From: Nereocystis luetkeana
Lineage: Eukaryota > Sar > Phaeophyceae > Laminariales > Laminariaceae
Reading direction: 5' to 3'
NCBI GenBank assembly: GCA_031213475.1
Contig: JARUPZ010000014.1
Coordinates: forward strand, 2,418,001 to 2,482,000
Length of the DNA: 64,000 bases
The position numbers were made by a program, and so were the translations under genes. Below, one piece after another: positions 2,253 through 52,900 of the stretch (position 1 is its first letter; every line of letters begins with the position of its first letter). The notes beneath the pieces were generated by a model that was not told the DNA's origin, ran no database searches, and saw nothing but the letters and a program-made list of their open reading frames with translations.

Positions 2253-3200
2253 TTACCAGTCTCTTTCCGCGGTCTCGTGTATAAGTAAGTACATGTTGCT
2301 GTTGTTATAGTACGACTATAGTATCGGTAGTAGTGTTCTATGTACGAGTATGCTTGTTCGGTATTATGAATACGTGTATGTGTACCAGGTACCTTGGTAT
2401 GTATTTATGCGAGTGAATATGCTGCTGTGTGTGCATACATTCTGTTGCTGCTGATGCTGTTCGTTATTGTGCATCTGCCACCTGCCACCCGAGGCGGTAT
2501 ATACCGTCAATAAATACAGGGACGATATTATTGGTGCTTCGCCGTGAGCGAGCCTCGGCTTTTGATGCGTAGACGTAATTTTGATCCTTTTTTGCTATAC
2601 CTCGCAACGCCATCCGAGGTGTTCTCCATGCAGCAGTACATACCGCCAAAAAACAAACAAACGAATGCACGCACTTTGCTGTACACCCCTTGGCAGTACA
2701 GTTGCTGTTGTGCGACTCGGTTCACCTATGATTTTACCTCTCTTCGTCACTACGGGCTTGCGCGAAGCCGCAGGCGGGCGTCAGCCCGCCGCGGCGAGGC
2801 CCCACTTGTAAATAAATACGTGTGATATGATATCCACTTTTCAGTTTGTTTCATTTCTCATATTCCTCCTCATTTGATATTCATTATTGTCGCTCCGTTC
2901 TCATTCTCGCCTCAGACTCTGGATCGCACTTGGCTAAACACTACCTGGTACGCTACAACAGCCAGCAGCATACATTTTAAGCTCTCACCGACGTCTCTTC
3001 TACACACTGCTTTGCACTTGAATCTCAACAGAACTCATCAGCAGTCAGACCTTGCAGTATACGTAGACAGTCTGAAAATGTGCAGCCTGGCCTCTCTGAT
3101 CGGATGCAGCTCAGCTGAACATCACATCTTATTTTGTATCAAAGTCACAGCAGCACTCGCGAAAGGGCACACAACAGTGCACAGATCCATGCCCATCCCA
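2253..3200. other. Intergenic, no gene seen
   Basis: I see no exon with a domain or good splice context. It contains two copies of the dispersed 9-mer TACCAGGTA/TACCTGGTA (2383 and 2942). It also has diverged TGCTGTTG and GTATG simple stretches around 2290-2470. Confidence 0.4.
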
Positions 3201-3224
3201 CCATACGTCGTATACTTGGAGTAC

Positions 3225-3765
3225 ACTTCGTGGGTGTCATGAGAGTATGCTTCGGATGCTTTAGTGCTGCGAGTACTCACAGTACAGTAAATGAGAGTAC
3301 TATTAATAACATCCAAAGCACTGCCAATAATCGCAGTATACCCCCAGTCCCAACTTGCTGCTACGTATTCTACACACTCTATGTCCATATAGACCACGTG
3401 GAATCTACTCCACTTCACTCCACCCCACCCCACTTCAGCAAGCTGTCTCCACAGTATTGCCATTACTCTGATTATCCTCCCAAATTACTGCGAGTACTGG
3501 GAGTACCCGCAGTATCGAACCTCGAAATACTCGGAGTTAGGCTAGGCAGTATCCGCAGTACTGCTGTACGCACATATCCAAACTATTGCCAGTACTGGCA
3601 GTATGGATAGCCAGTATTGAACAACGATGTAACTGCCAGTACACACAGCATAAACTGTATTGAAGCCTGTCAAATAATGTCAGTATACTCGCAGCATGGA
3701 TGGGCAGTATCGAATAGTGCAATACTGCCAGTACTCGCAGTATGACCACTGCCGAACCTGAAATG
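3225..3765. repeat. Degenerate tandem repeat rich in CAGTA / AGTACT
   Basis: Units of about 25-45 bp recur, built from GCAGTA, CCAGTACTCGCAGTA and AGTATCGAA. Examples lie near 3490-3610 and 3680-3745. The units are too diverged for a clean period. The frames open here are products of the repeat. Confidence 0.5.
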
Positions 3766-3778
3766 CTATCAATAATAA

Positions 3779-5422
3779 GACCTATGCCAATGGGAAAGCG
3801 AGGTATCAATAAAAAGTTTGAATTTCAAAGATACCCTCCAAAAAAATTAGAACACGCTTCCTATGGGCAAGTTTAGAAGAAAAAAAAAAGTCCCTACCTA
3901 TGCCAATGGTACAGCGAAGTTTCAATAAAAAGTTTGAATTTCAAAGATACCCGCCAATTTTTTTCAAAACACGCTTCCTATGGGCCACGTCAAAGAAAAA
4001 AAAAGTTCCTAACTTGTGGAAAAGCCCGAAAAAAGCAAATCTGAGGCCGATGTTGGGCCAACATCGGCTTGAGAAAAACTCAGGCCGATCTTTGGTTCGA
4101 AGCGGCGAGATTACGAGTCCGCGACAGATATCGATCAACAAAACCAACGATTGCGTCATGGATTCTGAACGGAGTGCGCTCGTTAGGGGCTCCGACCCAC
4201 CCTAGGGTCACCGTCTTCACACCATGGCCGGTGTCATGTGGCGGGAGCTGACCAGGCGTATGATAAGAAAACATCTGGCCGCTGGTTTGCACAAAACAGA
4301 AGACAAAACTTCTCCATCCGTCTCGAATGGCAAAAAATAGTTTTTTTTAAGGTTTGGGTCCTCCCAATACCGTAGGACGCCGCCGGCAAGCTCTCGCCCC
4401 CTAGACGATGGATCCACCTGATATCTTCGAGGCCGTCATCTATATCCGTTGGCCTTGCCAGATACCGAGCGGGTTGGCCGTGGGCTGAGTCTATGTCGAG
4501 ATCGAGCGTCGATCGTCGCACGAGCTGGTTTCGATCACCGTGTTGACAATTTGAAACCAGAAAAACACAAACTGCGCCGCCTGCAGCCGTTGGGGGAAAA
4601 AAAATACAAAATCAAACATTTTTCTTTTTTTTCCCCACATCGACGGTACGTGAAAGTTTTCGGCTGTTTTTGAAAGCAACATACTCGAAAAAAACTTTTG
4701 AACTTCGCGTTTCCATTGGCATAGGTCTAACTTTTGGAAAAGCCCGAAAAAAGCAAATCTGGGGCCGATGTTGGCCAACATCGGCTTGAGAAAAACTCAG
4801 ACCGATCTTTGGTTCGAAGCGATGAGATTCCGAGTCCTCGACAGATATCGATCAACAAAACCAACGATTGCGTCATAAATTCTGAACGGAGTGCGCTCGT
4901 TAGGGGCTCCGACCCACCCTAGGGTCACCGTCTTCACACCATGGCCGGTGTCATGTGGCGGGAGCTGACCAGGCGTATGATAAGAAACATTTGGCCGCTG
5001 GTTTGCACAAAACAGAAGACAAAACTTCTCCATCCGTCTCGAATGGCAAAAAACAGTCCCAATACCGTAGGACCCCGCCGGCAAGCTCTCGCCCCCTAGA
5101 CGATGGATCCACCTGATATCTTCGAGGCCGTCATCTATATTCGTTGGCCTTGCCAGATACCGAGCGGGTTGGCCGTGGGCTGAGTCTATGTCGAGATCGA
5201 GCGTCGATCGTCGCACGAGCTGGTTTCGATCACCGTGTTGACAATTTGCAAACAGAAAAAACAAATTGCGCCGCCTGCAGCCGTTGGGGGAAAAAAAATA
5301 CGAAATCAAACATTTTTCTCTTTTTTCCCGAGAGCGGCGGTACGAGGAAATTTTCGGCTGTTCTTTGAAAGCAATGTATTTGACAAAAACTTTTGAACTT
5401 CGCGTTTCCATTGGCATAGGTC
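3779..5422. mobile_element. Tandemly fused TIR element (two full units plus an extra left end)
   Basis: The terminal motif ACCTATGCCAATGG occurs at 3780 and 3896. Its inverted complement CCATTGGCATAGGT occurs at about 4712-4725 and 5408-5421. Between them two interior units (about 4008-4727 and 4728-5422) are direct repeats offset by about 720 bp and largely alike. They share a GGAAAAGCCCG start and a CTAGGGTCACCG block. The arrangement is left end, left end, interior, right end, interior, right end, which looks like a tandem insertion or unequal exchange. The minus strand has a 206-codon frame in the second unit (4797-5417) and a shorter relative in the first. I do not recognise its product and no DDE motif is evident. 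Confidence 0.55.
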
Positions 5423-6630
5423 TATAATACCTCCAGATTTGTCCGCCTAAAATCCGTCACTGATCATCTGGGCAGCAGCAGCAGTTTCTTTACAAGAGTA
5501 TTGAAAATCAGAACCAAAAGCCGGCACGTTTACAATACTATAACCGTACAGAATTCACAGCAGTACACTGTGAAGAACCCCGAGGGTCTAGAAGTAAGGC
5601 TGGGCGGACAGAATCGAAGACGATCCGCAAAGGTGGAAAATAGAAGCGAGGCAGAGACCAGCTTTTCGTAATCTCGTGCTATGCCGCTATATATATACTC
5701 GTAGATGATACGAGTACGAGTACGAGTGCAAGCGCAAGAAACTAAAGCTCGTCGGCCGCATTGTTATGATGTGTACTCGGTACTGCTACTCTTGTATTTT
5801 AGACCGCAATCTAAAGCCGGCATCCCCGGTGGTGGCTTGGTACGAGTAGGCGGTCCGCGTGCTTATCAAGATCAATTTCGTGGGTTCGAGTCTCACCGAG
5901 TGCATGCTCGTAAGGACTTTTTCTTGCATAAAAAAATGATTAGCGGAAAGCGTGAGAACGTGAGTTAGCTACATTCGATGAAAAATCGACGAGCAGTGGG
6001 AATGCTGAACCCTATGCGCGACAAAAAATAAAGGCACGTACCGGGGGGGAGAAGGGACGATACCTGTGACCACGGCTTGTCCAGAAGATCGCTGAGGGTA
6101 AAACCTCCTACGAGTTTGGCTGGAAAGTAAAAGTGACATAAAAAAAAAAAAACTACGACTAAGCGGAGCTTTCGAGATGTTTCGCGAAATCGGACTGTCA
6201 ATCTCCAGCAACTAAGAGTAGTACCGAACCTTCTGCCCAGGATCTACCACACAGAGCGACGTTAGACGCGGCCGCGCGCAGTGGTCTCGGGTCCGCCTCC
6301 GACAGCGCGCGGTGGAGAAGGCACGGCGGAGGCCGGGAGGTGTGACCTGCCACGAGGGCGGCCGAGAAAGCGAGGGCGAGTCGCCGAGCTGGATTTGTGT
6401 CCGGGGGCCAAAACTCCAGTACAAAGCTGGAGGTTTCCACTGCGCGCTTAGGCTCTCTCTAGAAGGGCTGAGGTTGCTCGTGGTCGATAATATATATACA
6501 AGGGCTTCGCCTGGGTGGATTGGAAAATATACCCAAGTGCCGGCTTGTGATTACTTCAGGAAGGTAATATGAAAACGACATTCGCAACTACGAACAGGAT
6601 CATGTCACTACCAAGTGGTATAGGAAGAAG
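5423..6630. other. Intergenic, no gene seen
   Basis: No supported exon. The TACGAGTA motif clusters here (5697-5720, 5840). A weak tRNA-like T-arm at 5880-5903 is discussed under rejected items. Confidence 0.35.
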
Positions 6631-6639
6631 CCGATAACT

Positions 6640-7065
6640 TACTTTAGTGCCTTCAGCGGTATTAGGCGTTTTTGGTGATGGAGACCGCAATAAATCAACG
6701 TACAGTAGTCATCAATTGGTTTTATGCGGAGATGGTTTATCAACATCCCGCCCGCAAAAGCAGTGTGTTGTTAACAGAAAACGCCTACAGCGTTATAAGG
6801 CGTCATTGGTCGGGGAGACAAGAAAAAGAGGTATAAACTAAACGGATTTTAGAAGTAGTGTTTGGCTAACTTCAGCGTCAGCGTCATTGATTGGTGGTGG
6901 AGACCGAATAAACGTGAAATTATAAAAATGGCGGGGTTTGGGTTTTGCATGACTATCCCAAAAGCCGTCTTTAAACGAATTAATCTTTAAACAAATTAAG
7001 AGCAAATACATATTTTGGTAATTCGGGGATGGTTCATCATTCATCACCAGCACCCCCCGTATAAA
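6640..7065. repeat. Diverged direct duplication, units about 230 bp
   Basis: Blocks TTGGTGATGGAGACCGCAAT and TTGGTGGTGGAGACCGAATA recur (about 6670 and 6890). In each unit these are followed, some 60-130 bp later, by CGGRGATGGTT next to TCATCA-like sequence (about 6725 and 7025). The degree of decay suggests an old duplication. No coding content is recognised. Confidence 0.4.
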
Positions 7066-7589
7066 CGTGGAGGATTGAAAGAAGGAAATCTGGGGTTTGT
7101 GGAGAGGTACTGAATCGTAGGCTGGATTGAAAATAGGATGGGGAAGAGGGTGCCCATGAAAGTGCAGTTAGTTGAATAAGGAAGAGAGGCTGGGAAGGGT
7201 TTGAGAGAGAAAGGAAGCAGCAGAACATCTACAGTAGTACGGCACTCTACTCGTGGGTGTGTGCGAGCAGGGGTTTGGGACTGAGTGGGAAGTTGGCGAG
7301 TTCAGGGTTTGAGAGAGATCATTGATCATATTCACGGCATATAAAGCCCAGGCAATCTTGCACAGGGCAGGGCTAGTCAGGGCTGCCAATCGTACGTGGC
7401 CTTGATGAACCTTGTCGCCCGATGGTGCGCCACTCTGAACTCGGAGAGGAAGACTTGCGCTTGGCAGGGGAGTTCTGGAACAGGGCTGACATGGCCGATG
7501 TCGAGGACTGCTGATGCGGTCTGGCGAGGAAGTGAGCCTGTGAGGGTGACATCAGATGTTGAGATCCGCATGTAGAAGGAGGGTTATTC

Positions 7590-7860
7590 CTAACCCTTTA
7601 TTATACGGGACTGTCAACGCGTACGAACTGTGTATTAAAATCTTCCTATCAAATTGATCCTTGGATCCTCGAGTACGAACATGCGACAGTCGACTGTCAA
7701 CGTAGGAAACCTACAACAAATTGACCAGTGGATCTTAGATCTCGATCACGAACACGGGACGGTCGACTGCACGCGTAAACAACAAAATTCAATTTGACCC
7801 TTGGATATGTTGAACTATTAATACGGTCAAATTAGCCCTTGGATCGTTGAGATCGTACGC
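7590..7860. repeat. Minisatellite, 3-4 diverged units of about 85 bp
   Basis: Units carry CCYTGGATC, a GATCxxGAACAYGxGAC block and GTCGACTG. Copies start near 7640, 7715, 7795 and 7830. They are diverged from one another. Confidence 0.45.
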
Positions 7861-7884
7861 GTACTACTACTGTCTTGTGATAAG

Positions 7885-8150
7885 ATCAAACACCCTGTTT
7901 GGTTCCAGATCTATAACGATAATCTTCTTGACTCTTCTTGCTCAATCACGTGTGTCCGGATGCAGCTCCAAACAAAGTACCCCCCGAACAAACCGACCGT
8001 TAAACCTGTTTTTTTTTTTGCGGTCGCTTGATCCTGAATACACGACTGATCACATACCCGGTTTGGCTCCAGATCTTCAAAAATCTTCTGGACGCTTCTT
8101 GCTCACTCACGCGTCCAGATGCAGCCCCCCAAAACATACGTGCAAAAAAA
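7885..8150. repeat. Diverged tandem duplication, about 160-bp units
   Basis: CCCTGTTTGGTTCCAGATCT...CTTCTTGCTCAATCACG...GATGCAGCTCCAAAC (from about 7890) is repeated as CCCGGTTTGGCTCCAGATCT...CTTCTTGCTCACTCACG...GATGCAGCCCCCCAAAAC (from about 8055). Confidence 0.5.
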
Positions 8151-8431
8151 GTAGAGCCTCAGCTCCTAGCAGTGGAGGTATCTATAATATCTTACGACGA
8201 ACTGCATGCCGGGGTATAGTACAACAGCAGTACTCATACTACGATCTCATTGAACGAGTCGAATCTGAAAAAGTACTCATGCTGTGATCATGCAGCAGTA
8301 GTACAACAGCAGTACTCATACTACGATCCATTGAACGAGTCGAATCTATAAAAGTACTGATACCACGATCTAATTGAACCGAGTCGAGTCGAAAGCAACA
8401 GGAGAGAGAGAGAAAAATAATTCATGCCGGT

Positions 8432-8622
8432 CATGTCTCTCCGTCTCCGCCAGACCGAAGGATTTTTTCTTAGTAGATCGTCCGTGTCTCCGATTACTCA
8501 GCAAGATCCGGTCATCGTCGGCGCTGAGCTCGGCATGTCTCTCTGTCTCCGCCAGAACCAATACTTTTTTCATAGTAGATCGTCCGTGTCTCCAAATTCT
8601 CAGCAAGATCCGGTAACTTCGT
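8432..8622. repeat. Tandem duplication, 102-bp unit
   Basis: CATGTCTCTCCGTCTCCGCC begins at 8432 and its copy begins at 8534. Each is followed by TAGTAGATCGTCCGTGTCTCC and CTCAGCAAGATCCGGT. The two units are still similar, so the duplication is fairly recent compared with its neighbours. Confidence 0.6.
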
Positions 8623-9003
8623 GGTCGCTGCGCTCGGCGGTGGAGCGCGATGTCGAGATTGCGCGCACGGGAGAACACGCGCCGGAGGCCGGCGAGCACG
8701 CCCCTCGAAAAGAGCGGTTGAAAAAGCACGCTCAAACCCCCTTTCTGCGGTCTCCCGACTATCAAGATATTTTTCGACTCTTCCAGCGAATGCTTCGCTC
8801 TCAGCGGTCGCGAATGATTTTGTATATATCTATATATCTTTATCGATACTGCTTGCTTGTACGAGTACACAGAGTTACTGCTGTAAGTTGGTTAGCCGCA
8901 GTATTGAAATTCGTGATGTCAACATGCCAACGCCATCAAGACCATCACCGCCGCAGTCGTGCGCTGTTCGCCTGTTCGGCTGCTCGGTTATCGGCTGTAA
9001 TAG

Positions 9004-12000
9004 TCGGAGTCCCTTCATAGGGAAGCATACAACGCCGTGTTTCGAGAGTTTGGTGTGGACTACAACTGGAGCCCAGAGTACTACGACGGACTCCAGAACA
9101 AGGTGCGGCGTTTATTTTGAATTGTTTGTTCACACGCGGACACATTACGATCTACAGATAGATCATCTACAGTAGATCCTATACCTGCAGTTGTGACATG
9201 CTATGCAGGAGCTGTTAAGTATAAGCCCAGCCCAGGAACCATGTCCTAGATCATGCAAGTTTTTATACAGCCCCCACCCGGCAACATGAGCTATATCATA
9301 CAGATCATACAGATCGTCTTCCCTGAACGATCTAGATCATGTAGTGAGGAGCGGTCATCTGTCCGATTTGTGTTTTTGCTATTTTTTCCGGTTCTCGGAG
9401 TGTTTGTTGTTACTAGTTTTTTAAATTGTATCGGAAGTCCGGTGTGTCGGATATCATATCGAAAGAATGTAGCGTGTTCGACTTCCGATAAAAATTATTT
9501 TTCCTGATGGGGGAGGGGAAGTCCCTCTACTGCCCCCCCCCCCAAGCTGTCGAGAGTCGAGTGTCCTAGGTGAATTATGCAACGTTGGGTATGATATTAG
9601 AAGAATACATGAAACAGTGCCCCTCTGCAGTATCGTGCCCTGTATTTCCGTATATATATCCTGCATACCAGGTACATGGTAGCGTTTACCATATAATATA
9701 GTGTCGGCATCGGAGTTTTTGGCAATCCGATCCGATCCGATAAATATCGGGTTGTGTGAATACCGGATATCGTTTTGTTAGCCCCTATCGGATCGGGATC
9801 GGTGTTCGCTCCAATATCCCACACTATCAATAGTTGTTGTCATCTGTGTACTGGCATGGTACTGCTGCTGCGCTTGTGTGGTGTGTGGTCTCTTGTGAAA
9901 CACGGCGGAAACACGCATGCAGCGCAAGTACTTAGCACTGCAGCAGTATGCATGATACGAGTACGATAATATGTGAGGGTTCCAGAATACCCATTCAAAT
10001 ACGTGTGTACGAAGTATACGTACTGCTGCATCGCCTCGCGCACCCCCCTGGCAGTACCTGGTCTCCGTTGTAGGTAGGTGGCGATGATATTAATACATTA
10101 ATACCTGTACGCGAAAGGTGCTCGTGGGTATCGGTATGGATGGAGGATCGGGTCATGCTGTCATGCTTTGACTACCCGTACTCGTATTACACGAACGGGG
10201 GCGAGCGTGAACACTCCTCTGGCGTGTCTGGTTAGCCATGTGCAGAGTATGATACGGTGGCACGAAGGCACCCGTGTACCGGCGTATGTTGCCCAATGTG
10301 AACATGGACGCGAATGTTTCACACATCGGACATAGATCGAACAGATCAGATAGAATAGATAGCTCAGATAGATCAGACAGATCAGACAGATCAGATAGTT
10401 CAGATCAGATCCTCGTTGCATTATTTACCGTGGATCGTTACTATAGGGGCAGGGGCAGATAGATCCCTGATTTATGACCTGCACAATGTAGATATATTCG
10501 TAGTAGGTCATGTTTGCCGGGGGGGATCTATCTATATGACACGGCTCTTCTTGTGCACATGTTCTCCGTATGGGATCTGCATGGTAACTGCAGCTCTAGC
10601 GCAACATATCATATCCGCAGCTTTAGGATCTAGAAGATCTAGATGATCTATCTATAGATGATCTATCTGTAGGTGATCTAGCTGTAGGTGATCTGTCCGA
10701 CGTGTCCATTGTGTGGAATGTTCCGACGACGATCCAGGTGGGAGGAGGCAAGCCTAAGATGAGGTACTACTTCGGAGAGAACGGCTGGCCAAAGTCGAAG
10801 CTAGGAGGACCTCCGGCGACGGACGACGAGAAGGCTCTGCTCATCGACTCCTTGCAGGTCAGGAGCGAGGACCGACAATAGATGCTACAATTCTTGATTC
10901 TCCTGGGGGTTTCCCCCCTGTTTTTGTTTGTTTGTTTGTTTGCTGGTTTTCCTGAGGGGGGGTTTCCTGGAAGAGATCTAAGCGTTCCTGTTTTTCCCCT
11001 CTGTTAAATTTCTGATTTGGGAGTATGCCTCTTTTTGCTCTTTTTGCTATTTTTGTTTCATGAAAAGGAAGAAACTCAGGGGAAAAGTTATTCGATAGTA
11101 CCGGTCATAAATCATCAATTTTTTACTGGCAATTTTAGGAGACGATAATATTACTTAATCAAAAGTATGTTTCCCATTGCCTACTTATAGTAGCTGTTGG
11201 TACTTATAGAGACCGTCACGAATCTGTTGTTCCGGTAATACATTTGGATAAACATCTCCCTATATACCTCGTACTCGTACGAATTATATTTATATCTTGT
11301 TCGAGCAACAATCTGTTGTGGTCGCTTTTTAGGTTATTCATTTTCCAGCAACAATATGATATGGCCAACTCTCCGAATGTTTTGTTCCGGGAATATTCCA
11401 CCGTCCACCGCAGTCGCTGTTCCAAAATACTTCTGCTTCTGCAATATTATACCGGTGTGTATGTCGGGGCAGTCCATAGTACAATACGTAGATGTTTATA
11501 TTGTCGTAAGAATAGTACAATACTCGTATTAATATGTTTATGTTGTCGTGACAATAGATGTTTCTACTGGCGTAACAATGGACGTTGTAATGACATAATA
11601 AAAGGAGTAGATGCTATTAGACGACCCCCCCAATCTACTGCCATGGCTACAGGCAGCAGCAGTCTACTACATTAGATATATATATATAATATATATATAC
11701 GATATATATTGTCCAGCGCGTGGGAAGTCATTCTTCCACTGTGTTAGTCGGCACGCTTCCTACCTCTCGGCTAAATACGTGTTGATGGTTACATTGTAAA
11801 CTCCTTCAGGACTGCACCCACATTATTTTTGTAACAAACTACTTAAAAATGTAGTAGTGTTTCTTTGTTGATCCTCCGGCGCGGTATGAAAAAAAACAAC
11901 TAAAAAAGCCAAAGCCCAACACGCTTTTACATCCACATATGAAATACTTGCCTTTTGTCAATTCAACTGCTACAACTGTAAAAGAGCTTCGTCGGCGTCG

Positions 12001-23945: not shown

Positions 23946-24974
23946 TGAATGCGATAAAGGGCTAATAGTTCAACACGTATGTGGTGAGCCGACGAGCGAA
24001 GGAAGTATGTAAGAATGGTCATAACGGGCGATGAAAGTCAAGGCGAGCAACTGTGCACTCGCCGTGGCAGAGAAGGGGGGTGGCGTACCCTGCTGAGTAT
24101 GTGATCTCGGATCATAGTTACAGAGAAATAAGGCAGTAAGGGCAGATATGTGTAGAGCGACCGGGGCAAGACAAGGAATGTGTGGGGGACGTACGAGTAC
24201 ATGGGGGAAGTCTGAGGGGGTAGACGCATTTTTCATGTAATTAAATATGTATCTGGTATTGGATGAAGTGTACGCGTTGCGAGGAGTTTTGAATGAATGC
24301 CGTGTCCGTCTCTATGCTGTTTGGTGTAGATACTGTACAGTAGTCTACTGAAGGGTGACAGCTGCCGTTTTTTGCTTGTTTCAGAACAAAGTTATCAAGA
24401 AGAAGAAAACCCATGGAACTCTCAAAACAGAGAAGCTGCCCTTTGTCTTTGCATCCTATAGAGCCATTCGGCCGCATGCAGACTCCACCCCCACAAGTCT
24501 GCGTCTGATGTTTTCCGTTGTCACCCTTGTCCCCATCATGCTCCCGCTGCTAATAGCATATTTATCTTCCGTCTAGTCAAACCCGGCAGTTAGAGTTTGA
24601 AGTGGGACTCCCTTTTTTTGCGAGATGACGGCACGGGTGGCCACACCGATCGATACGATCTGCAGAAACAATGTTTACCTTCAGCTGTACGTAGTGGTGT
24701 TTGTATTAAATAGTTGTCAGTGGTAGATACCGCCGTACCCCACGGGGGTGATAAGATGAAACACTCCCTATAGGATGTATGTGAGAGTAGCCGACTTACT
24801 TCCACAACAAAAGGGGGGCGCGGACACAACGGTTTTTCGGCGTTGGGAAGACCTCGTCAAGATCTTTCCATGCACACATAGGCGCGTCGCCCGGTGTTTG
24901 CTCTCGCCCCGTTGTCGAGAAATGCAGTATAAAAATACTAATGCTAATACTACCAGGTATTAAATACTAACAGT
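23946..24974. other. Intergenic, no supported gene
   Basis: No exon recognised. It contains one TACCAGGTA site (24951), 15 bp before the left boundary of the LTR element. Confidence 0.3.
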
Positions 24975-25386
24975 AATAAGGTTCTGTAGTCGTCACCGCC
25001 GGTGGGTCGTGATCCCACTCCTCTCTGCGTGGGCAGAGTGTTCTAACTGGTAAACTACGACGGCTGGAGTGTGTGACAACTCGGAGTGAGACAGCAATCC
25101 GATGACAAGGGAGACGGGAAGGGAGAGCCGAGGGCGAGCACTTGTCGTTGCTGTCGCGGCGCTCGGGTCAAAGGACCATTCAGCGGGGTCTTCCTAAGTC
25201 CCGCTGCGGAGAATCCGCCAGGCAGAATAGCCGCCGTGGAGGATCCGTCGGCGGAACGGGGAGGAGAAGGCTCCGTGGCGAGGTCTAGACGTGACAATCT
25301 CCCGAGTTCCCAAGGAGAGCTTCGAGAACGAGTTTCCCGAAGATGCGAGGGGTTTCGACATATATGAGTAGGCGTGTTGGTTCCGG
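24975..25386 (-). repeat. 3' LTR of the Ty3/gypsy element
   Basis: It matches 30845-31253 from AATAAGGTTCTGTAGTCG to GTAGGCGTGTTGG. The boundaries are where the two copies stop matching. It contains a tRNA-like fold at 24994-25064. Confidence 0.8.
24994..25064 (-). other. tRNA-like structure in the 3' LTR (71 nt)
   Basis: On the minus strand the sequence folds as a tRNA. The acceptor stem is GCCGTCG/CGGCGGT (seven pairs, two G-U). The D arm is GTTT/GAAC with an 8-nt loop. The anticodon arm is CTCTG/CAGAG. The T arm is GTGGG/CCCAC with a 7-nt loop, and G is the discriminator base. The anticodon loop is only 6 nt (CCCACG), so a working tRNA is unlikely. The arm most resembles a shortened tRNA-Gly(CCC). 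There is no CCA and no intron. Confidence 0.6.
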
Positions 25387-27530
25387 TAACATCCGTGGGC
25401 CTCTTCGGCCACCAGAATCTATCTCGAATAGTATCGAACGTTGCTTTAAAAGCTAAGTGACCTCCGGACGCTGGTAGGTCGTGACACGAATTAATGACAA
25501 GTTTTCGAAGGGATTTGGGCACTACCAGCTGATCGCGGAACGTGCTACGCTTCCTTAAGTGACCAGGAAGGTACGACTTGAATAGCAATCCTTCATTTAA
25601 GAAAAAATAGCTCATCGTGTACTTAGATTCTGTAGAAGGGGGTGGGGCCGATGCAGGTGCATGGAGATACTCAAAGTACTGACAAAATTCTTCTTTCTGT
25701 AGGTCGACAAGTTTCGCTGGATCTACAGTAGGGAAGACAGACACTGCGCTCATGAACAATTCACGATCGCTTTCGACAGGTGCTACATCGTGCAAATTAG
25801 ACGCGGATATTTCGTAATCGCGGGGTCCGGGTGGGTAGTAAGGTCCGTCTATCGGTACGTTACGACAAATCGCGGCCAATCTGGGCTCGGATGGGACGGG
25901 TTCCCCGTTGACTTCGCTAAAAGCACGAGACAGCATATCAGGCACAACATTTAATTTGCCTGCGACATGTTTGACAGTGAAATCGAAATTCTGAAGTGCA
26001 ATGGCCCAACGGGTCAGCATGTTAGAGGTGTCCTGCATTTTGTAGAGGTACGTAAGTGCTTGGTGGTCAATACAGCAAGTGAAATGCTTGCCCCACAAGT
26101 ATGGGCGCCAATGAGTAACAGCCCAAACCACAGCACAACACTCTTTCATGGTCGCACTATAATGACGTTGGCTTTTTGAAAAGCGGTGACTGTAATACGC
26201 GATGATATCAAGATCGGAGTCGGAGCTACCTTCGCGTGAGGGTTGAGCAAGAAATGCTCCTACTCCTGCTTCTGATGCATCGGTATGGACAACGAACTCT
26301 CGAGTAAAGTCCGGGTATTTAAGAACTGGCGCAGAAGTTAGAGCGCGCTTAGCACGAGCAAAAGCTTCACGTTGCGCAGGCCCAAAAGCCTTCTTGAAAG
26401 CAGTCTTTTTAACAAAACCCTTACGAGTAAGTTCAACCAGCGGTGCTGTGATTTCAGCATAACCGTCTATAAAACGGCGGACATAATTGAGTGTACCTAA
26501 AAAACCCCGATTAGCTTTGATACACTCAGGCTCAGGCAAGGCGAGAATGGCTTTGATACGGTCGGCACTGATTGAGATGCCTTTTTCCGAAATGACATGG
26601 CCAAGGTACTCGATTTCTTTTTGACCGAACTGAAGTTTACTCGGTTTCAAAGTTAGGCCTGCTGCCTGTAATGCTGAGAACATTTGCTCAAGGGATTTCA
26701 GGTGAGCTTCGAACGTTGAATTAAGACAAATAATATCATCCATGTACGTAAGAATACCTGACTCAGGACCAAGATGGCCGAAAGTGACAGACATCATGTG
26801 TTGAAACAACCAAGGGGCATTACAAACTCCAAAAGGCATGCGTTTAAAACAGAACTTGCCGGTGGGAGTGACGAATGCTGTCCGGTCGATGTGCTCTTCT
26901 GCAACGGGCAGTTGCCAAAACGCGCTGAGGACATCGGCTGTAGAGATGAACTTGACGCCTCCGACTGCATCTAGACAGGAATCCAGGTTCGGAAGGGGCC
27001 AACTCTTGCGGACGATATGACGGTTGAGGGTATGACGATAATCAACACAGAAACGAGGGCTTCCGTTCTTCTTTGCAACGAGAGTACACGGGCTACCCCA
27101 CGGGCTAGGACGCTCTTCGATTATGTCCCATTCTAGCATGTCATGGACGCATTTATCTATGACAGTAGTAGCGCGAGGATTAGCACGGTATGGAGGACGG
27201 TCAACCGGACGGGTGTCAGGTGGCAAGGGAAACGTTGCTTCTGCGTTGGTGCAGCGACCGAGCTCTGACATAGACAAGGCAAAGACAGGACGGTACCGGG
27301 AGCACAAATCAAGGACAGCGGCTTGTTGGTCAGGTAAAAGCTTAGTATCAGTAAATGCTTTGGACAAGGGACCTTGAAGCTCTGATTTGGCTCGAGCGAG
27401 TTCATCGACTGATTCAGGGGTTTTCGCAACAGCGTTAACGTGTAGTTGATCAGGCGTCACTACTGACACAGTGAATAACTGACCAAGACATAAACCAATC
27501 GGGGTGCAACACCATCAGAGGACGGGTTCG
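25387..27530 (-). mobile_element. pol region of the Ty3/gypsy element (fossil)
   Basis: In order along the minus strand: an N-terminal segment; reverse transcriptase with SPWGSPCTLVAKKNG, RFCVDYRHTLN, FCFKRMPFGVCNAP and the YMDD box (TYMDDII); a connection with YLGHVISEKG; RNase H with VVHTDASEAGVGAFLAQ; and an integrase HHCC-type zinc finger with HDLPASGGHLAFKATFD. These parts are typical of Ty3/gypsy polyproteins. The full set of pol parts is not present, so I regard it as a broken copy. Confidence 0.85.
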
Positions 27531-27740
27531 CAAGTTGCACTGCTACTGAACCGTCAGCAGCATACCAAGTAGCGAGGCTGCCTGGCGGATTCTCCGCAGC
27601 GGGACTTAGGAAGACCCCGCTGAATGGTCCTTTGACCCGAGCGCCGCGACAGCAACGACAAGTGCTCGCCCTCGGCTCTCCCTTCCCGTCTCTCCCTTGT
27701 CCTCGGATTGCTGTCTCACTCCGAGTTGTCACACACTCCA

Positions 27741-27811
27741 GCCGTCGTAGTTTACCAGTTAGAACACTCTGCCCACGCAGAGAGGAGTGGGATCACGACC
27801 CACCGGCGGTG
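27741..27811 (+). other. tRNA-like structure in the inverted partial LTR
   Basis: Same 71-nt fold as at 24994-25064, on the opposite strand. The fold is unchanged in all three copies, so it was present in the LTR before duplication. Confidence 0.6.
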
Positions 27812-27839
27812 ACGACTACAGAACCTTATTGGCGTCGGA

Positions 27840-29290
27840 CGGCAGTTGATCATCAACAGCAGTGTCGATTCTGAAGTTGTCTGGAACATGTCAGGAGAAT
27901 CATCCGAGATTGTTGATAGTTCCGCAGCGGAGAAAACACCAACAACACCCGGCGGAGTCCTCGAAGAAAAGAACGGGAGCACGGACCCACCCGCCGCCTT
28001 CAACCCCGGAGCGCTCCAATCGACTCCATCCGGGACCGCCTTGCCCGCATCGTTCACCGGGAACTCGAGAAGATGGAGCGCGGAGAAATCGAGGTGCTGT
28101 CGGAGCAGCACAACTCCATGCTTCAGCAACTGGCAAGTTTGAGTGTATCCAGTAGTCCCGCAGCGTCTGTCACCCTGTCTGAGTCATATAACTCGAACTC
28201 TGTCACCCCTGTCCAAACTGCTTCTACGTACTGGTATGCAGCAGTGCTGTCCGCACCAAAGGCTGTGACCTTCACGCCTAACGATGTCCGTGAATGGTAG
28301 TGCTGACGTCGATGTCGCCGAGGTACTGTCGCAGTTCCGCTTGGTTGTTGGTTTTCGAGCGAAATCCGTCGCGCCGAATGACGATAAATTCGCTGATAAT
28401 CTTGCTTTCGAGCACTTGAGCCTCATCTGTGACGGTCCTTGTCTTACGTTGTACCAACAACTGATGTCTGGTAGGATCGATTGGAGCGCGAACGTTGTCA
28501 ATGCCGAGAGCGTGAACAACCCCGGCTCATTTTCCCCACCGACCACTTGGGAGGAACTCAAACTCGCAATCCTAGACATCCTGATGCCCGCGAACAGCGT
28601 AGAAGAGTGCCATTAAATTGGCAACATTCAAGTCGGATAAAGGCGAGACTGTATCAGCCTCCGCACTGCGTTTCCGCGCACTCATGTCCCGATTCGAGTC
28701 GGCTGTCGAGCGACACGCTAAAGGCCGTACGCCTTGGTCCGCAATCACTGTCACCTTGTGGCAGCACAGCCTGCCTCCCGCTCTGCAATTGTTGCAGAGC
28801 GGTGAAAAACCTGTCACCTCTTTCAAAGAGGCTGTCGAGCGCGCCCGTCGCCACGAAGCTGCACGCCTCACTGGTGCAGCCACTGTGAGCGCAATGTCAT
28901 TTACACCCGTCCCGAACCGTGCTGCTGTCCGCCAGTTACAGCAGTCCTCTCGCCAGCAGCCGCGCCAGCAGGGCCGCCAGCAAGCTGGACGAAACGGACG
29001 ACGGCAGCAACAGTCCAATCAGCAGCGCAAGCCCCGCCCCCATTGCACTTACGACAGGTGCGACAAGCCCGCCGGCCATTGGGAATCCATGTGTCTCCAG
29101 AAGGCACGTGACCTCAGGGAGCGCAACCGACGCTCGTCTGGTGCTTCCAAGCGCGACCGGTCTTCGTCTCCCCGCGGCAATCTCCGTCACCGCTCTCGCC
29201 GCGACCGCGACGACGACGACGAGGACGATCACAGGAGCCAGGCCAGCAGCACCAACGGAGACGGCAACTGACGTGGCCCAGCTGCTGTAG
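27840..29290 (+). mobile_element. gag region, inverted copy (fossil)
   Basis: The translation gives a long Gln/Arg-rich tail after a gag-like alpha-helical section. A zinc-knuckle-like cluster CTYDRCDKPAGHWESMC (spacing C-x4-C-x5-H-x4-C) and an Arg/Ser/Asp-rich C-terminus support nucleocapsid. Several frames are used across the region, so I treat it as a broken gag. Confidence 0.65.
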
Positions 29291-29314
29291 CGCTTGCAGC
29301 AGTCGGGACACACC

Positions 29315-29336
29315 TTGCTACTAATACGGTAGCCAG
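29315..29336. other. Centre of the palindrome
   Basis: A 22-nt spacer itself forms a 5-bp stem GCTAC/GTAGC (29317-29321 and 29329-29333) around the loop TAATACG. The axis of symmetry is therefore at about 29325. Confidence 0.8.
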
Positions 29337-29379
29337 GGTGTGTCCCGACTGCTGCAAGCGCTACAGCAGCTGGGCCACG

Positions 29380-30830
29380 TCAGTTGCCGTCTCCGTTGGT
29401 GCTGCTGGCCTGGCTCCTGTGATCATCCTCGTCGTCGTCGTCGCGGTCGCGGCGAGAGCGGTGACGGAGATTGCCGCGGGGAGACGAAGACCGGTCGCGC
29501 TTGGAAGCACCAGACGAGCGTCGGTTGCGCTCCCTGAGGTCACGTGCCTTCTGGAGACACATGGATTCCCAATGGCCGGCGGGCTTGTCGCACCTGTCGT
29601 AAGTGCAATGGGGGCGGGGCTTGCGCTGCTGATTGGACTGTTGCTGCCGTCGTCCGTTTCGTCCAGCTTGCTGGCGGCCCTGCTGACGTTGCTGGCGCGG
29701 CTGCTGGCGAGAGGACTGCTGTAACTGGCGGACAGCAGCACGGTTCGGGACGGGTGTAAATGACATTGCGCTCACAGTGGCTGCACCAGTGAGGCGTGCA
29801 GCTTCGTGGCGACGGGCGCGCTCGACAGCCTCTTTGAAAGAGGAGACAGGTTTTTCACCGCTCTGCAACAATTGCAGAGCGGGAGGCAGGCTGTGCTGCC
29901 ACAAGGTGACAGTGATTGCGGACCAAGGCGTACGGCCTTTAGCGTGTCGCTCGACAGCCGACTCGAATCGGGACATGAGTGCGCGGAAACGCAGTGCGGA
30001 GGCTGATACAGTCTCGCCTTTATCCGACTTGAATGTTGCCAATTTAATGGCACTCTTCTACGCTGTTCGCGGGCATCAGGATGTCTAGGATTGCGAGTTT
30101 GAGTTCCTCCCAAGTGGTCGGTGGGGAAAATGAGCCGGGGTTGTTCACGCTCTCGGCATTGACAACGTTCGCGCTCCAATCGATCCTACCAGACATCAGT
30201 TGTTGGTACAACGTAAGACAAGGACCTTCACAGATGAGGCTCAAGTGCTCGAAAGCAAGATTATTAGCGAATTTATCGTCATTCGGCGCGACGGATTTCG
30301 CTCGAAAACCAACAACCAAGCGGAACTGCGACAGTACCTCGGCGACATCGACGTCAGCACTACCATTCAAACGCGGAAGGCTACGGACATCGTTAGGCGT
30401 GAAGGTCACAGCCTTTGGTGCGGACAGCACTGCTGCATACCAGTACGTAAAAGCAGTTTGGACAGGGGTGACAAGAGTTCGAGTTATATGACTCAGACAG
30501 GGTGACAGACGCTGCGGGACTACTGGATACACTCAAACTTGCCAGTTGCTGAAGCATGGAGTTGTGCTGCTCCGACAGCACCTCGATTTCTCCGCGCTCC
30601 ATCTTCTCGAGTTCCCGGTGAACGATGCGGGCAAGGCGGTCCCGGATGGAGTCGATTGGAGCGCTCCGGGGTTGAAGGCGGCGGGTGGGTCCGTGCTCCC
30701 ATTCTTTTCTTCGAGGACTCCGCCGGGTGTTGTTGGTGTTTTCTCCGCTGCGGAACTATCAACAATCTCGGATGATTCTCCTGACATGTTCCAGACAACT
30801 TCAGAATCGACACTGCTGTTGATGATCAAC
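29380..30830 (-). mobile_element. gag region in element orientation (fossil)
   Basis: Same gag-like protein signature as the inverted copy, including the zinc-knuckle-like cluster. It lies between the 5' LTR and the palindrome centre, as gag should. It reads in several frames and looks broken. Confidence 0.65.
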
Positions 30831-30844
30831 TGCCGTCCGACGCC

Positions 30845-31253
30845 AATAAGGTTCTGTAGTCGTCACCGCCGGTGGGTCGTGATCCCACTCCTCTCTGCGT
30901 GGGCAGAGTGTTCTAACTGGTAAACTACGACGGCTGGAGTGTGTGACAACTCGGAGTGAGACAGCAATCCGATGACAAGGGAGACGGGAAGGGAGAGCCG
31001 AGGGCGAGTACTTGTCGTTGCTGTCGCGGCGCTCGGGTCAAAGGACCATTCAGCGGGGTCTTCCTAAGTCCCGCTGCGGAGAATCCGCCAGGCAGAATAG
31101 CCGTGGAGGATCCGTCGGCGGAACGGGGAGGAGAAGGCTCCGTGGCGAGGTCTAGACGTGACAATCTCCCGAGTTCCCAAGGAGAGCTTCGAGAACGAGT
31201 TTCCCGAAGATGCGAGGGGTTTTGACATATATGAGTAGGCGTGTTGGTTTCGG
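30845..31253 (-). repeat. 5' LTR of the Ty3/gypsy element
   Basis: Direct-repeat partner of 24975-25386. On the minus strand it is followed by TTGGCGTCGGACGGCAG, where a primer-binding site would lie. I cannot assign that stretch to a particular tRNA. A tRNA-like fold occupies 30864-30934. Confidence 0.8.
30864..30934 (-). other. tRNA-like structure in the 5' LTR
   Basis: Third copy of the 71-nt tRNA-like fold, same orientation as in the 3' LTR. Its D- and T-arm sequences sit at the spacing of RNA polymerase III A and B boxes, but match the box consensus only partly. Confidence 0.6.
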
Positions 31254-32001
31254 GGACATGGTATCCACAGTAATTGTAATATTAATAGTAATCAGTAGCT
31301 CGGAAATCCGTCCGAAGGTGTATGGTATCTTACCACACGTGTTACATGCCAAATCATATGCTGCAACCTACCTGGTACAGCAGTATTTATATGTATTCAT
31401 ATTGATACAAGTACGTACTTACAAGTACTACTACTGCTGGTCGTCTTCGCGTACATGGCGTTTGCGGCTTTGTATATTACTCCGTTTCTTTAGAAAAAGT
31501 GTTGGGGGAGCAAAGACACCAGAGGAGACCGGTCTTCAGCGTTTTTGGACGCGTCAAGGCGTCTTTGTCCTTGATATACTAGTTTTAGTTATGGGGCCGG
31601 TCAGCCAAGGGGTCAAACCGCGGTCCTTGATCATACAAGTCTTGTTACCAAAGGAAGTACAGTCAAAATTGCTGTGAGTTCGACCATTCATTAATCTTTG
31701 CAAATATGGCGTTCAAAAATGACGGTTTCGATTTTCGAAGAACAGAAGTACAGCAGTCCCTTGATTTTTTATTTTGTTCTGAACCGAACGAAGGCCATTA
31801 CAGCTCAAGCCTTCTCTCGCTCGGTCCCTCGGTGCTCTGAGCTTGCCAGCAAGCAGCAGGTATCACGCACGCTCCGAGAGCCTTGGTGGTGGGAGAGTAT
31901 AGCTGTGGCGAGCCCTGGTATATTCATCGTCAAGGCTGAACACTGTTGCTGCTGCTGCTGCTGCTGCTGTACGCGCTGCTGTTACTACAGCTCTGTGGCC
32001 G
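31254..32001. other. Spacer between LTR element and gene 2
   Basis: Includes a CTG/TGC run at about 31945-31970 just upstream of the predicted start. A block near 31578-31636 (GGTCAGCCAAGGGGTCAAAC) is echoed at 60684-60742, a dispersed repeat relic. No clear promoter is identifiable. Confidence 0.35.
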
Positions 32002-49900: not shown

Positions 49901-52900
49901 CGAAGTTTCCGTACCTGTCTCGCAGGGTGTTGAGGATGGGGATTGTTCTTCCCCATGATAGTTATCGTCGTCGCTGTCATTCGAGATAGCGGTTCGACGA
50001 CGTTTGGAAGTTTTTTCTCTTCTCTCAACGGAGAATTGCTCGAAGTACTGAGGGTAAGTCAAATCGTCGCAGAAGGGAGAAATTGGACGGCCGAAGTATC
50101 TCATGAGCCCAGACACGGCAGCGTCGGCAGCAGCTTGGTGCTTGTCGCGCTCGTCTGCTTCGTCCTGAACAACGGGCTGCTCTCCCTTAAGGTGGACGTA
50201 AAGCAGGTCGACTGAAGGTGTTCGCTCTTGCGTGGTGAATCCGAAAATTTGCCACATGGCCTGTGAACTCGTTATGTATCGGACGCTCCTGTATGCCTCT
50301 ATCTCATATTTACCGGACGAAACTCTAGCACGTATTGTGTCTGCCTAGTTGTAGGCGTACTTGTAAAGGTAGGCGATGACCGCCATGGCTGTAACTAAGT
50401 CGACGCAAATGTGGCAGTCATACTTCATGAACAAATATGGGTTGTAGGGGACGATGTCGCGGTTATCGATGTCGGTGTCGACTGTTTTGTTTTCGCCGTT
50501 TTTGCACCTGATTGTGGCTCTGTCGCCGTTGTTAAAGAGGCTCGTATTCGGCTCTACCCGAGTCATTTGTGTGAAGTGTTGAGGGTAATGCTTCTGGCAG
50601 TATTTCTTGTGTGTTTTTGTTTACTTTCATGCAAGGTGCGGATGGGTTGTGTTTTCCACATTTCTTGTGAACCATGTATTTGAGCACCTTGGCCCGAAGC
50701 TCTCCGTTGGCAATTGAGGCGTCCGGTAGATTTGTCCAAATCCGATCGTCGACCTGACCCCGCTTTTCTGGGCTTGCTCCGTCGTCCTTAACGATGATAT
50801 ATATGCGCATGTACGACGCCTATGGCTTGGTATTCAATGACATACATTATGTATGTACATTTTCCGAAGAGTGTGCTTTTGAGATCAGCGAGGAGGTGCT
50901 TGAGCTTGAATTTTGAAAACGCGGTCAACTAGGTCTGGCCTGTCCATACCGGTCTGACCAGGCAGGAGGTTTGCTAGTACTTCGGGCCAGGTTGGTGATC
51001 CTGTGTAAATGCCACCATTAAGGTTGGGGGACCCATGCGCGCGACAACGGTCATTGCGTCTAGTTGTTTCCTTTTTCTGTGTACATGTGACCCGTGAAAG
51101 CTTGCGGGTAAACGTTTACCTACGGCAGCAGCGGCAGGATCTACAGGATTTGCGTATGGTTATCGGTGCGTTAGCATGAACGATGTTCATCGGTGGGTTT
51201 ACCTGACCTGCCAGATCTATAACATCTGAATCATCTGCAGGGTCTGTAAGGTTTGATAGAAATGCACCTGAATCGGAGATTGATTTATCTGAGTGACTCT
51301 TGATCCATCTGTAAATCTTAACCGGGCGAGATCAGTAAGATTTGCATGAACGGCACATACACGTTTCGTCGGGAAGACGATGTGAAGTGTTGGTCGTGTT
51401 CTACAGTAGTAGTAGGACCCGCTGGCGAAAGGCAACCGGTGAGAGTCAAGGAGTCTTGGTGGATAGTGTCGTGGAATGTAGTGAGTGATTCAGGATGGCG
51501 TGGTGGCGTAGGCCTAACGTAGACTTCACAGCAGGCGTTATCCTCTAAAAGGGTTTAACCCCTTTAGAACCGCAGTCCCATTTTAGGGACGAACTACTTG
51601 AAGTTTGAGTGGTTCGTCCCCAAAACGGGACTGCGGTTCTAAAAGGGTTAAGGTGAGAGCAAGGATGACATTTTTTGCATCATCGGAAATTTCTTGGCGT
51701 ATGTCGCTGGAGGTAGGAATTTTCTTGGTACGAACTTCAAACTACAACAACTGACTGCAGACAGAGTACGTTGTACGTATATTTGAAACCGTACAGAATG
51801 TCATGATTTTTTGGGAGGTCCACGAGACACGAGACCCGCCCCATACAACACCGCACCTTCTCTTCTGCCTTGATGAACGTACTACAGTACATCTCCAACT
51901 GCATCTCCTGGGCCTGCACCTACCACACCAGCGCCTGTTTGGTCATCGGTCTCTGCCTCCCAAGCTTCGTCGCCGTCGACCTGTGCCTCTTTTCCTGCGG
52001 CTTCATCCGCCGTACACCTCGTCGACGGAGACATAGACCCAGCTAGGTCGCTCCCCGACCTGTGCCCCCGGAACGGCTGTGGAGTGCCGCTTTTATGAAA
52101 CAAAACCCTCGGACCGACCGACCCATAGTTGGGTCTATGTCTCCGTCGACGAGGTTTACGGCGGATGAAGCCGCAGGAAAAGAGGCACAGGTCGACGGCG
52201 ACGAAGCTTGGGAGGCAGAGATCGATGACCAAACAGGCGCTGGTGTGGTAGGTGCAGGCCCAGGAGATGCAGCAGGAGATGCAGTAGGCAGCGGCGGAAA
52301 AGGATCGGTGGCGGTGCAAGTGCTAGAAGATGATTTAGCAGGAGGAGGTGGCGATGATGTCGAAGTCGAGTTGTTGATGCGGGAGCTGGCCCGAGTCATT
52401 GGCGTGAAGATGTTTTGTGGATGCTCGATGGGAGACGTGGAGAAGATGGTCGGATTGATGTGTGTGCTTGCATGTGTGCGGCGTGGTGTCCTGGGCATGA
52501 TCGTATTGTATGCAGCTATTTTGAAATGAGCAGTTTCTTAATTTTGTTGCCATGGGCAGTAGAATCATTTTCAACAACGAGGAGGAGTCGTACCTCTGCT
52601 GCAATTGCAGCTATGAAGAAAACAAAATGCGGCTAAAAAAACGAAGCTCCGGGTAGGTTTCCAATCCTATTGCGCCGAAACAAAAATACGTGGCGACGAT
52701 CACTCGATTGCTCGAGTGTGCCGAGCACGAGACACGGCACACACACCGTTCGTGGCTCTGACGAAGGGAAAGGCTCGAAGCGCGGCTGTTGGCCAAGAAG
52801 TGACGGGAGCACGATCACGCAACTCGAGCAGCACTCGCCTGTAGTTTTGTGCTGGTTTGTACTGCTGGACAAGAACAATAATATTTTTGCAGCCAACAAT

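Follow-up and report, generated by a model that had tools for sequence, protein, structure and literature searches.

How does an integrated retrotransposon come to carry its own gag region twice, head to head, in a palindrome of 3.5 kb? The question is raised by a locus of Nereocystis luetkeana within positions 2418001-2482000 of contig C14 in the 465-Mb genome assembly. This stretch of 64,000 nt, analysed as a whole, is called the window below, coordinates are counted from its first letter, and the relatives used for comparison were taken from the same genome. The palindrome lies inside a Ty3/gypsy-like long terminal repeat (LTR) retrotransposon on the minus strand, running from 31269 to 24977. 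We consider it fairly probable (about 0.74) that the structure was formed at the complementary DNA (cDNA) stage, by a template jump and a snap-back of the nascent cDNA during reverse transcription, and was then integrated once.

The palindrome is real. Self-comparison gave one inverted match of 27578-31095 to itself, at 97.8% identity, in which two halves of 1759 nt each surround a short hairpin; the inverted arms are far longer than chance would produce. With the centre excluded, the halves differ at 12 places (eight substitutions and four insertions or deletions of 1, 2, 9 and 14 nt). Six of these are derived changes that only the right arm carries and three are derived changes found only in the left arm; the remaining three, at 27690, 27702 and 27974, belong to neither class. 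The derived deletions of 14 and 9 nt both sit in the left gag arm. The sequence-only reading of this DNA had claimed a near-perfect palindrome at 27578..31095, gag and part of an LTR present twice and head to head, a centre that is itself a small hairpin, and a recent event in an element with LTRs about 99% identical, and these claims were borne out. The right arm runs on into a complete 5' LTR and the left arm stops 173 nt inside the LTR; the hairpin (29313-29338) is imperfect; and the LTRs are 98.8% identical (5 mismatches in 412 positions, together with a single gap of 3 nt), in agreement with the figure of about 99%. The parts of the element are as follows.

24973-24976, no strand: left copy of the 4-bp target site duplication, reading GTAA (TTAC in the sense of the element), the same 4 bp being found at 31270-31273
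24977-25392, minus strand: 3' LTR without the first ~16 nt of U3; aligns to the related copy L018 from its base 9001 on, with ATGT at 25389-25392 common to both sides
25389-27581, minus strand: pol remnant with reverse transcriptase, RNase H and a truncated integrase zinc-binding domain; L018 3725-5918 at 99.1%
27578-27581, no strand: junction of pol (antisense on the plus strand) and the LTR piece (sense on the plus strand); at most TGC shared, preceded by a mismatch
27578-27828, plus strand: LTR piece of the left arm, starting at LTR position ~174 and reaching the LTR end, and retaining a TC that is missing from both full LTRs
27829-29312, plus strand: left arm, leader and gag; template of the snap-back
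29313-29338, plus strand: palindrome centre, imperfect hairpin with the loop TAATACG; apart from one altered base, the sequence that the family has just 3' of gag
29339-30846, minus strand: right arm, gag and leader; copy made by the snap-back
30847-31269, minus strand: 5' LTR with complete U3 start (TGTGGATACC)
31270-31273, no strand: 4-bp target site duplication, right copy (GTAA)

The assignment to the Ty3/gypsy-like elements is made from the domain order (reverse transcriptase, RNase H, integrase) and the paired LTRs with a short target duplication. In the pol remnant, RVT_1, RT_RNaseH and positions 1-44 of the 59 of Integrase_H2C2 were found with Pfam, and rve, the integrase core, was not found there; an open reading frame of the relative L010 carries RVT_1, RT_RNaseH, H2C2, rve and p58_C in this order. 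The LTRs start with TGTGGATACC and end with CTTA, and a 4-bp target duplication was seen in all seven relatives for which both ends were found by pattern (11 relatives tried). The two LTRs of the window element are asymmetric, the U3 start being intact at 31269 and about 16 nt being gone from the pol side of the 3' LTR. In the relatives the polypurine tract ACTGGGGGGTGA precedes the 3' LTR; the window element has 0 exact matches to this string, the tract falling in a block that is deleted from it (L018 5919-9000), and on this ground the element is judged to be a defective copy of its family.

For the comparison with the family, 20 relatives were picked as the best matches to the palindrome centre, from 22 places that had been located, and the straight copy L018 served as the reference for a segment map. 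In L018 coordinates, the window element consists of 722-2672 in sense (31269-29329), 2690-899 in antisense (29339-27578), 3725-5918 in sense and 9001-9424 in sense. Relative to L018, gag and part of the LTR have been added in a second, inverted copy, and bases 2691-3724 and 5919-9000 are missing; with the second of these blocks went the polypurine tract as well as 16 nt from the start of the 3' LTR.

Three junctions define this arrangement, and no junction was located at an LTR terminus. The match counts given for them are lower bounds, each resting on the scored candidates. At the centre (J1) the window has CCTTGCTAC-TAATACG-GTAGCCAGGG (29313-29338), and its counterpart in the relatives, CCTTGCTAC-TAATACG-GTAGGCAGGG, was exact in 10 of the 18 copies checked; the short hairpin is accordingly present in the family without the palindrome. 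J1 was complete only in the window (29 of 29 candidates scored). For J2 (27578-27581; query 27507-27647), the pol side matched bases 1-75 and the LTR side bases 72-141, and the full-length match was found only in the window (best 40 of 153 candidates scored). J3 (25389-25392), with ATGT common to both sides, was likewise complete only in the window (best 40 of 115 candidates scored). A genome search for the same TAATACG centre and the 27577/27578 junction therefore gave no second complete locus among the scored candidates. The centre hairpin folds at -2.5 kcal/mol as DNA, and the one Rfam match over the element, to mir-932, fell at the centre, below threshold.

The centre shows which way the strand folded back. 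The plus strand keeps the sense of the family across the whole hairpin (first arm, loop TAATACG, second arm) as far as CAGGG, with one base changed, and beyond this it is the complement of its own preceding sequence. On the minus strand, the departure from family sense begins at the first hairpin arm, and the loop is reversed. Because a strand that snapped back carries family sequence on its own 5' side, the plus strand is identified as the growing strand; and since the centre is in family sense on this strand only, the left arm is the template and the right gag arm the copy. This strand ran from left to right and copied gag from the left arm into the right. In pol the growing plus strand is antisense, i.e., minus-strand DNA. 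A model in which a plus strand was made first, with the complete 5' LTR and gag at its start and the truncated left arm as the copy, was dropped, the loop and the second hairpin arm being in family sense on the plus strand only.

The origin of the arms was examined in the aligned rows of the relatives, some of which do not cover every gag site. Three substitutions and two insertions (2 and 6 nt) are private to both gag arms and occur in 0 of the 20 other rows. Of 47 columns diagnostic of two subfamilies, 46 lie within 27837-27974; the arms agree in 46 of the 47, the lone disagreement being left-arm 27974. For the stretch covered by these columns a derivation of the arms from two subfamilies was rejected on this agreement, and the shared private changes argue likewise for the remaining gag; the two gag arms have one origin in common. 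Within the LTR portion, the full LTRs match each other against the left arm at two sites. At 27690, TC is kept by the left arm and by all eight other aligned LTRs and is missing from both full LTRs; at 27702, the C of the left arm occurs otherwise only in L033 (an apparent solo LTR), and both full LTRs have A. The gag arms differ by 6 substitutions in 1484 positions and the LTRs at the 5 of 412 given above, or 3 of 410 when two changes adjoining J3 are excluded (Fisher p 0.07 and 0.42, respectively), so that the palindrome and the LTR pair appear to be of similar age.

We propose the following course of events, with all steps at the cDNA stage. The nascent minus strand would have copied the 3' LTR and then pol, and would have jumped at J2, inside the LTR, onto minus-strand DNA, probably of a second co-packaged genome. 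After the jump, the LTR, leader and gag would have been copied in sense. Just past gag, the 3' end may have paired back on itself at the natural short hairpin (J1), with self-copying in antisense through gag as far as the primer binding site. A strand copying only itself would run on into pol after LTR position 174, so that a complete 5' LTR needs a strand transfer or another switch; an ordinary transfer onto strong-stop DNA at the primer binding site could have supplied one that matches the 3' LTR in type. A regular transfer of this kind after the fold-back is expected to leave the two full LTRs alike and different from the left arm, as they are at 27690 and 27702. These LTR differences count against the plus-strand model and are predicted by the minus-strand model, for which reason the proposal is given odds of 0.74 instead of 0.72. 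A further skip (J3) would have taken out the polypurine tract and, on its two sides, the last part of pol and the opening bases of the 3' LTR; it may belong to the same cycle, the other genome providing the strong-stop DNA, or may be a later deletion. The product, with both outer LTR ends, would then have been integrated once.

Several observations weigh against this proposal. The second genome is argued from two neighbouring sites (TC at 27690 and C at 27702), for which reversion or parallel change could be the source, and the left-arm C at 27974 fits another subfamily, isolated among opposite diagnostic sites. J2 shares at most three bases (TGC), after a mismatch. In L018, a 3'-terminal hairpin at least as stable as that of the centre was found at 464 of 8224 positions in 26-nt windows and at 870 of 8224 in 40-nt windows, and the surroundings of the centre folded no better than shuffled sequences (z -0.24 and 0.06); these comparisons showed no special stability of the centre hairpin. 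If the polypurine tract was lost on the minus strand, plus-strand priming would have needed another molecule, as proposed for human immunodeficiency virus type 1 (HIV-1), and the loss may instead have come later, by deletion. Taken alone, the target duplication is also compatible with a rearrangement after insertion, and the p value of 0.07 is borderline and leans to arms younger than the LTRs.

The last two points bear on a different explanation, in which a normal element was inserted and only afterwards rearranged on the chromosome, by template switching linked to replication (through fork stalling or microhomology-mediated break-induced replication). Such a course would preserve the target duplication, short overlaps are present at the junctions, and the divergences cannot separate an event soon after insertion, the one comparison with p 0.07 leaning that way. 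However, copying from its own LTR should have transferred the TC deletion that both LTRs share, every breakpoint lies inside the element, and the relative L009 (see below) shows antisense copying from the sequence of another element within the family; we regard this explanation as unlikely. The sequence-only reading had named an assembly artefact as the main alternative. Long inverted repeats are a recognised class of artefact of assembly or library preparation, such as a missed adapter or a fold-back chimera, but the 12 differences between the arms (six derived on the right only and at least three on the left only, including the 9- and 14-nt deletions) give each arm its private changes, and the structure starts and stops inside one element with the target duplication outside it. 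An artefact is accordingly very unlikely.

That reading had also offered aberrant reverse transcription or self-integration as the cause. Of the former, self-priming and template switching were both retained here. Self-integration (autointegration) can invert part of a retroelement cDNA and is expected to join an LTR terminus to an internal site, whereas of the junctions found here one is 173 nt into the LTR, one comes after gag and one is 16 nt into the 3' LTR. It was rejected on these positions, with which it could be reconciled only if the LTR end had been trimmed afterwards, and is the least credible of the explanations considered. Scarcely more credible is the suggestion that the element represents a transmitted non-autonomous lineage making hairpin RNA. 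A transcript begun in the 5' LTR would run through gag and on into the inverted copy, and matches to RNA-silencing domains exist in the genome. Against this, the centre and both other junctions (27577/27578 and 25389-25392) were complete once each, in the window, among the scored candidates, the polypurine string is absent, and a lineage is unlikely because both the polypurine tract and the integrase core are gone. The palindromic element is probably a dead-end copy and not a new lineage.

Returning to reverse transcription as the preferred origin, other inverted segments were found in two of the 20 fetched relatives (L009 and L020); the sample is small and was chosen by similarity to the centre, so that three of 21, with the window element, is not a rate. 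L009, whose LTRs are the closest to those of the window element among the 20, has an inverted duplication near the start of gag (L009:728-1233) with a stuttered TTTTTCCGA repeat at its centre, which was complete once (6 of 6 candidates scored). Its antisense part carries exactly the internal deletion junction of L031, and because the inverted piece crosses that junction it was copied in antisense from a different molecule. L031 itself (L031:1029-2414) is an internally deleted relative with the LTR type of the window element, in which gag fragments are joined to a stretch near the 3' end. L020:2130-2331 is a simple inversion of 205 bp in gag, with the full arrangement found once (best 40 of 75 candidates scored). 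Both resemble the window element in carrying inverted gag segments inside otherwise recognisable elements, but differ from it in their breakpoints, the L009 segment being from an internally deleted relative and that of L020 a plain inversion. By its antisense copy of an identifiable deleted relative, L009 offers sequence evidence of intermolecular antisense switching.

Two further features were observed. A second palindrome, with arms of ~196 nt that are 86.5% alike, lies outside the element at 51890-52281. Near the LTR end there is a tRNA-like cloverleaf of 71 nt, valine-like with a 6-nt anticodon loop, in the following copies.

24994-25064, minus strand: tRNA-like cloverleaf
27741-27811, plus strand: tRNA-like cloverleaf
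30864-30934, minus strand: tRNA-like cloverleaf

The cloverleaf was detected by relaxed ARAGORN in 19 of 22 distinct LTR versions and was not detected by ARAGORN under the default condition or by Rfam. In Kojima 2024 (PMC10886601), tRNA-like LTRs are reported in short non-coding terminal-repeat retrotransposons in miniature (TRIMs; Helenus), and their shared use by autonomous partners is argued to be unlikely. Unlike those TRIMs, the present family is coding, and because of that argument a coding family with a tRNA-like LTR merits its own study.

As for consequences, transcription from the 5' LTR would yield a long hairpin RNA. Matches to silencing domains in the genome comprised five stretches at one place for Piwi, 11 stretches at two places on contig C10 for RNA-dependent RNA polymerase (RdRP) and one stretch for RNase III; processing of the hairpin RNA by such machinery is conceivable, and with it the idea of the sequence-only reading that double-stranded gag RNA could feed small-RNA silencing. 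We consider it improbable that the family is unusually prone to antisense copy-back, on itself and on co-packaged deleted relatives, with head-to-head copies recurring and LTR-transcribed hairpin RNAs silencing the family. The element preserves the trace of successive polymerase jumps, with a direction that is readable from the sequence, and suggests that a retrotransposon can build and integrate a kilobase-scale palindrome within one replication cycle. Because long inverted repeats are fragile and can give double-stranded RNA, the births of such palindromes may lead to instability and may provide triggers of silencing.

In cDNA work, reverse transcriptases are known to self-prime hairpin second strands, the 3' end folding back at a short hairpin. 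The window element resembles these products in that a 3' end appears to have folded back at a short hairpin and to have been extended on its own strand; unlike them, made in vitro, it would have arisen during retrotransposition and been fixed in a genome. In a literature search, mostly outside the subscription literature, no listed paper was recognised as a report of an LTR retrotransposon with a palindrome of gag. Related structures have been reported. For HIV-1, one study (PMC9278108) gives genomic inversions in one provirus (1.3%) and an inversion with a deletion in one (1.3%), and proposes strong-stop DNA from the other genome as the source of asymmetric LTRs. As far as the inversions are described there, the window element shares with these proviruses the inversions and the asymmetric LTRs, with an intact 5' LTR and a deletion into the 3' LTR, and differs in having an extra inverted copy, in its 3.5-kb palindrome centred on a hairpin, and in being gypsy-like. 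In the Triticeae, Sabot and Schulman 2007 (PMC1950507) described template-switching complexes in direct orientation, with two cores sharing an LTR and with target duplications. The window element is like these complexes in being a composite with a third LTR, similar outer LTRs and a flanking target duplication, read as one product of reverse transcription; unlike them, with their two complete direct cores, it has an extra piece that is inverted, partial and without pol. The palindrome is real but of a known kind.
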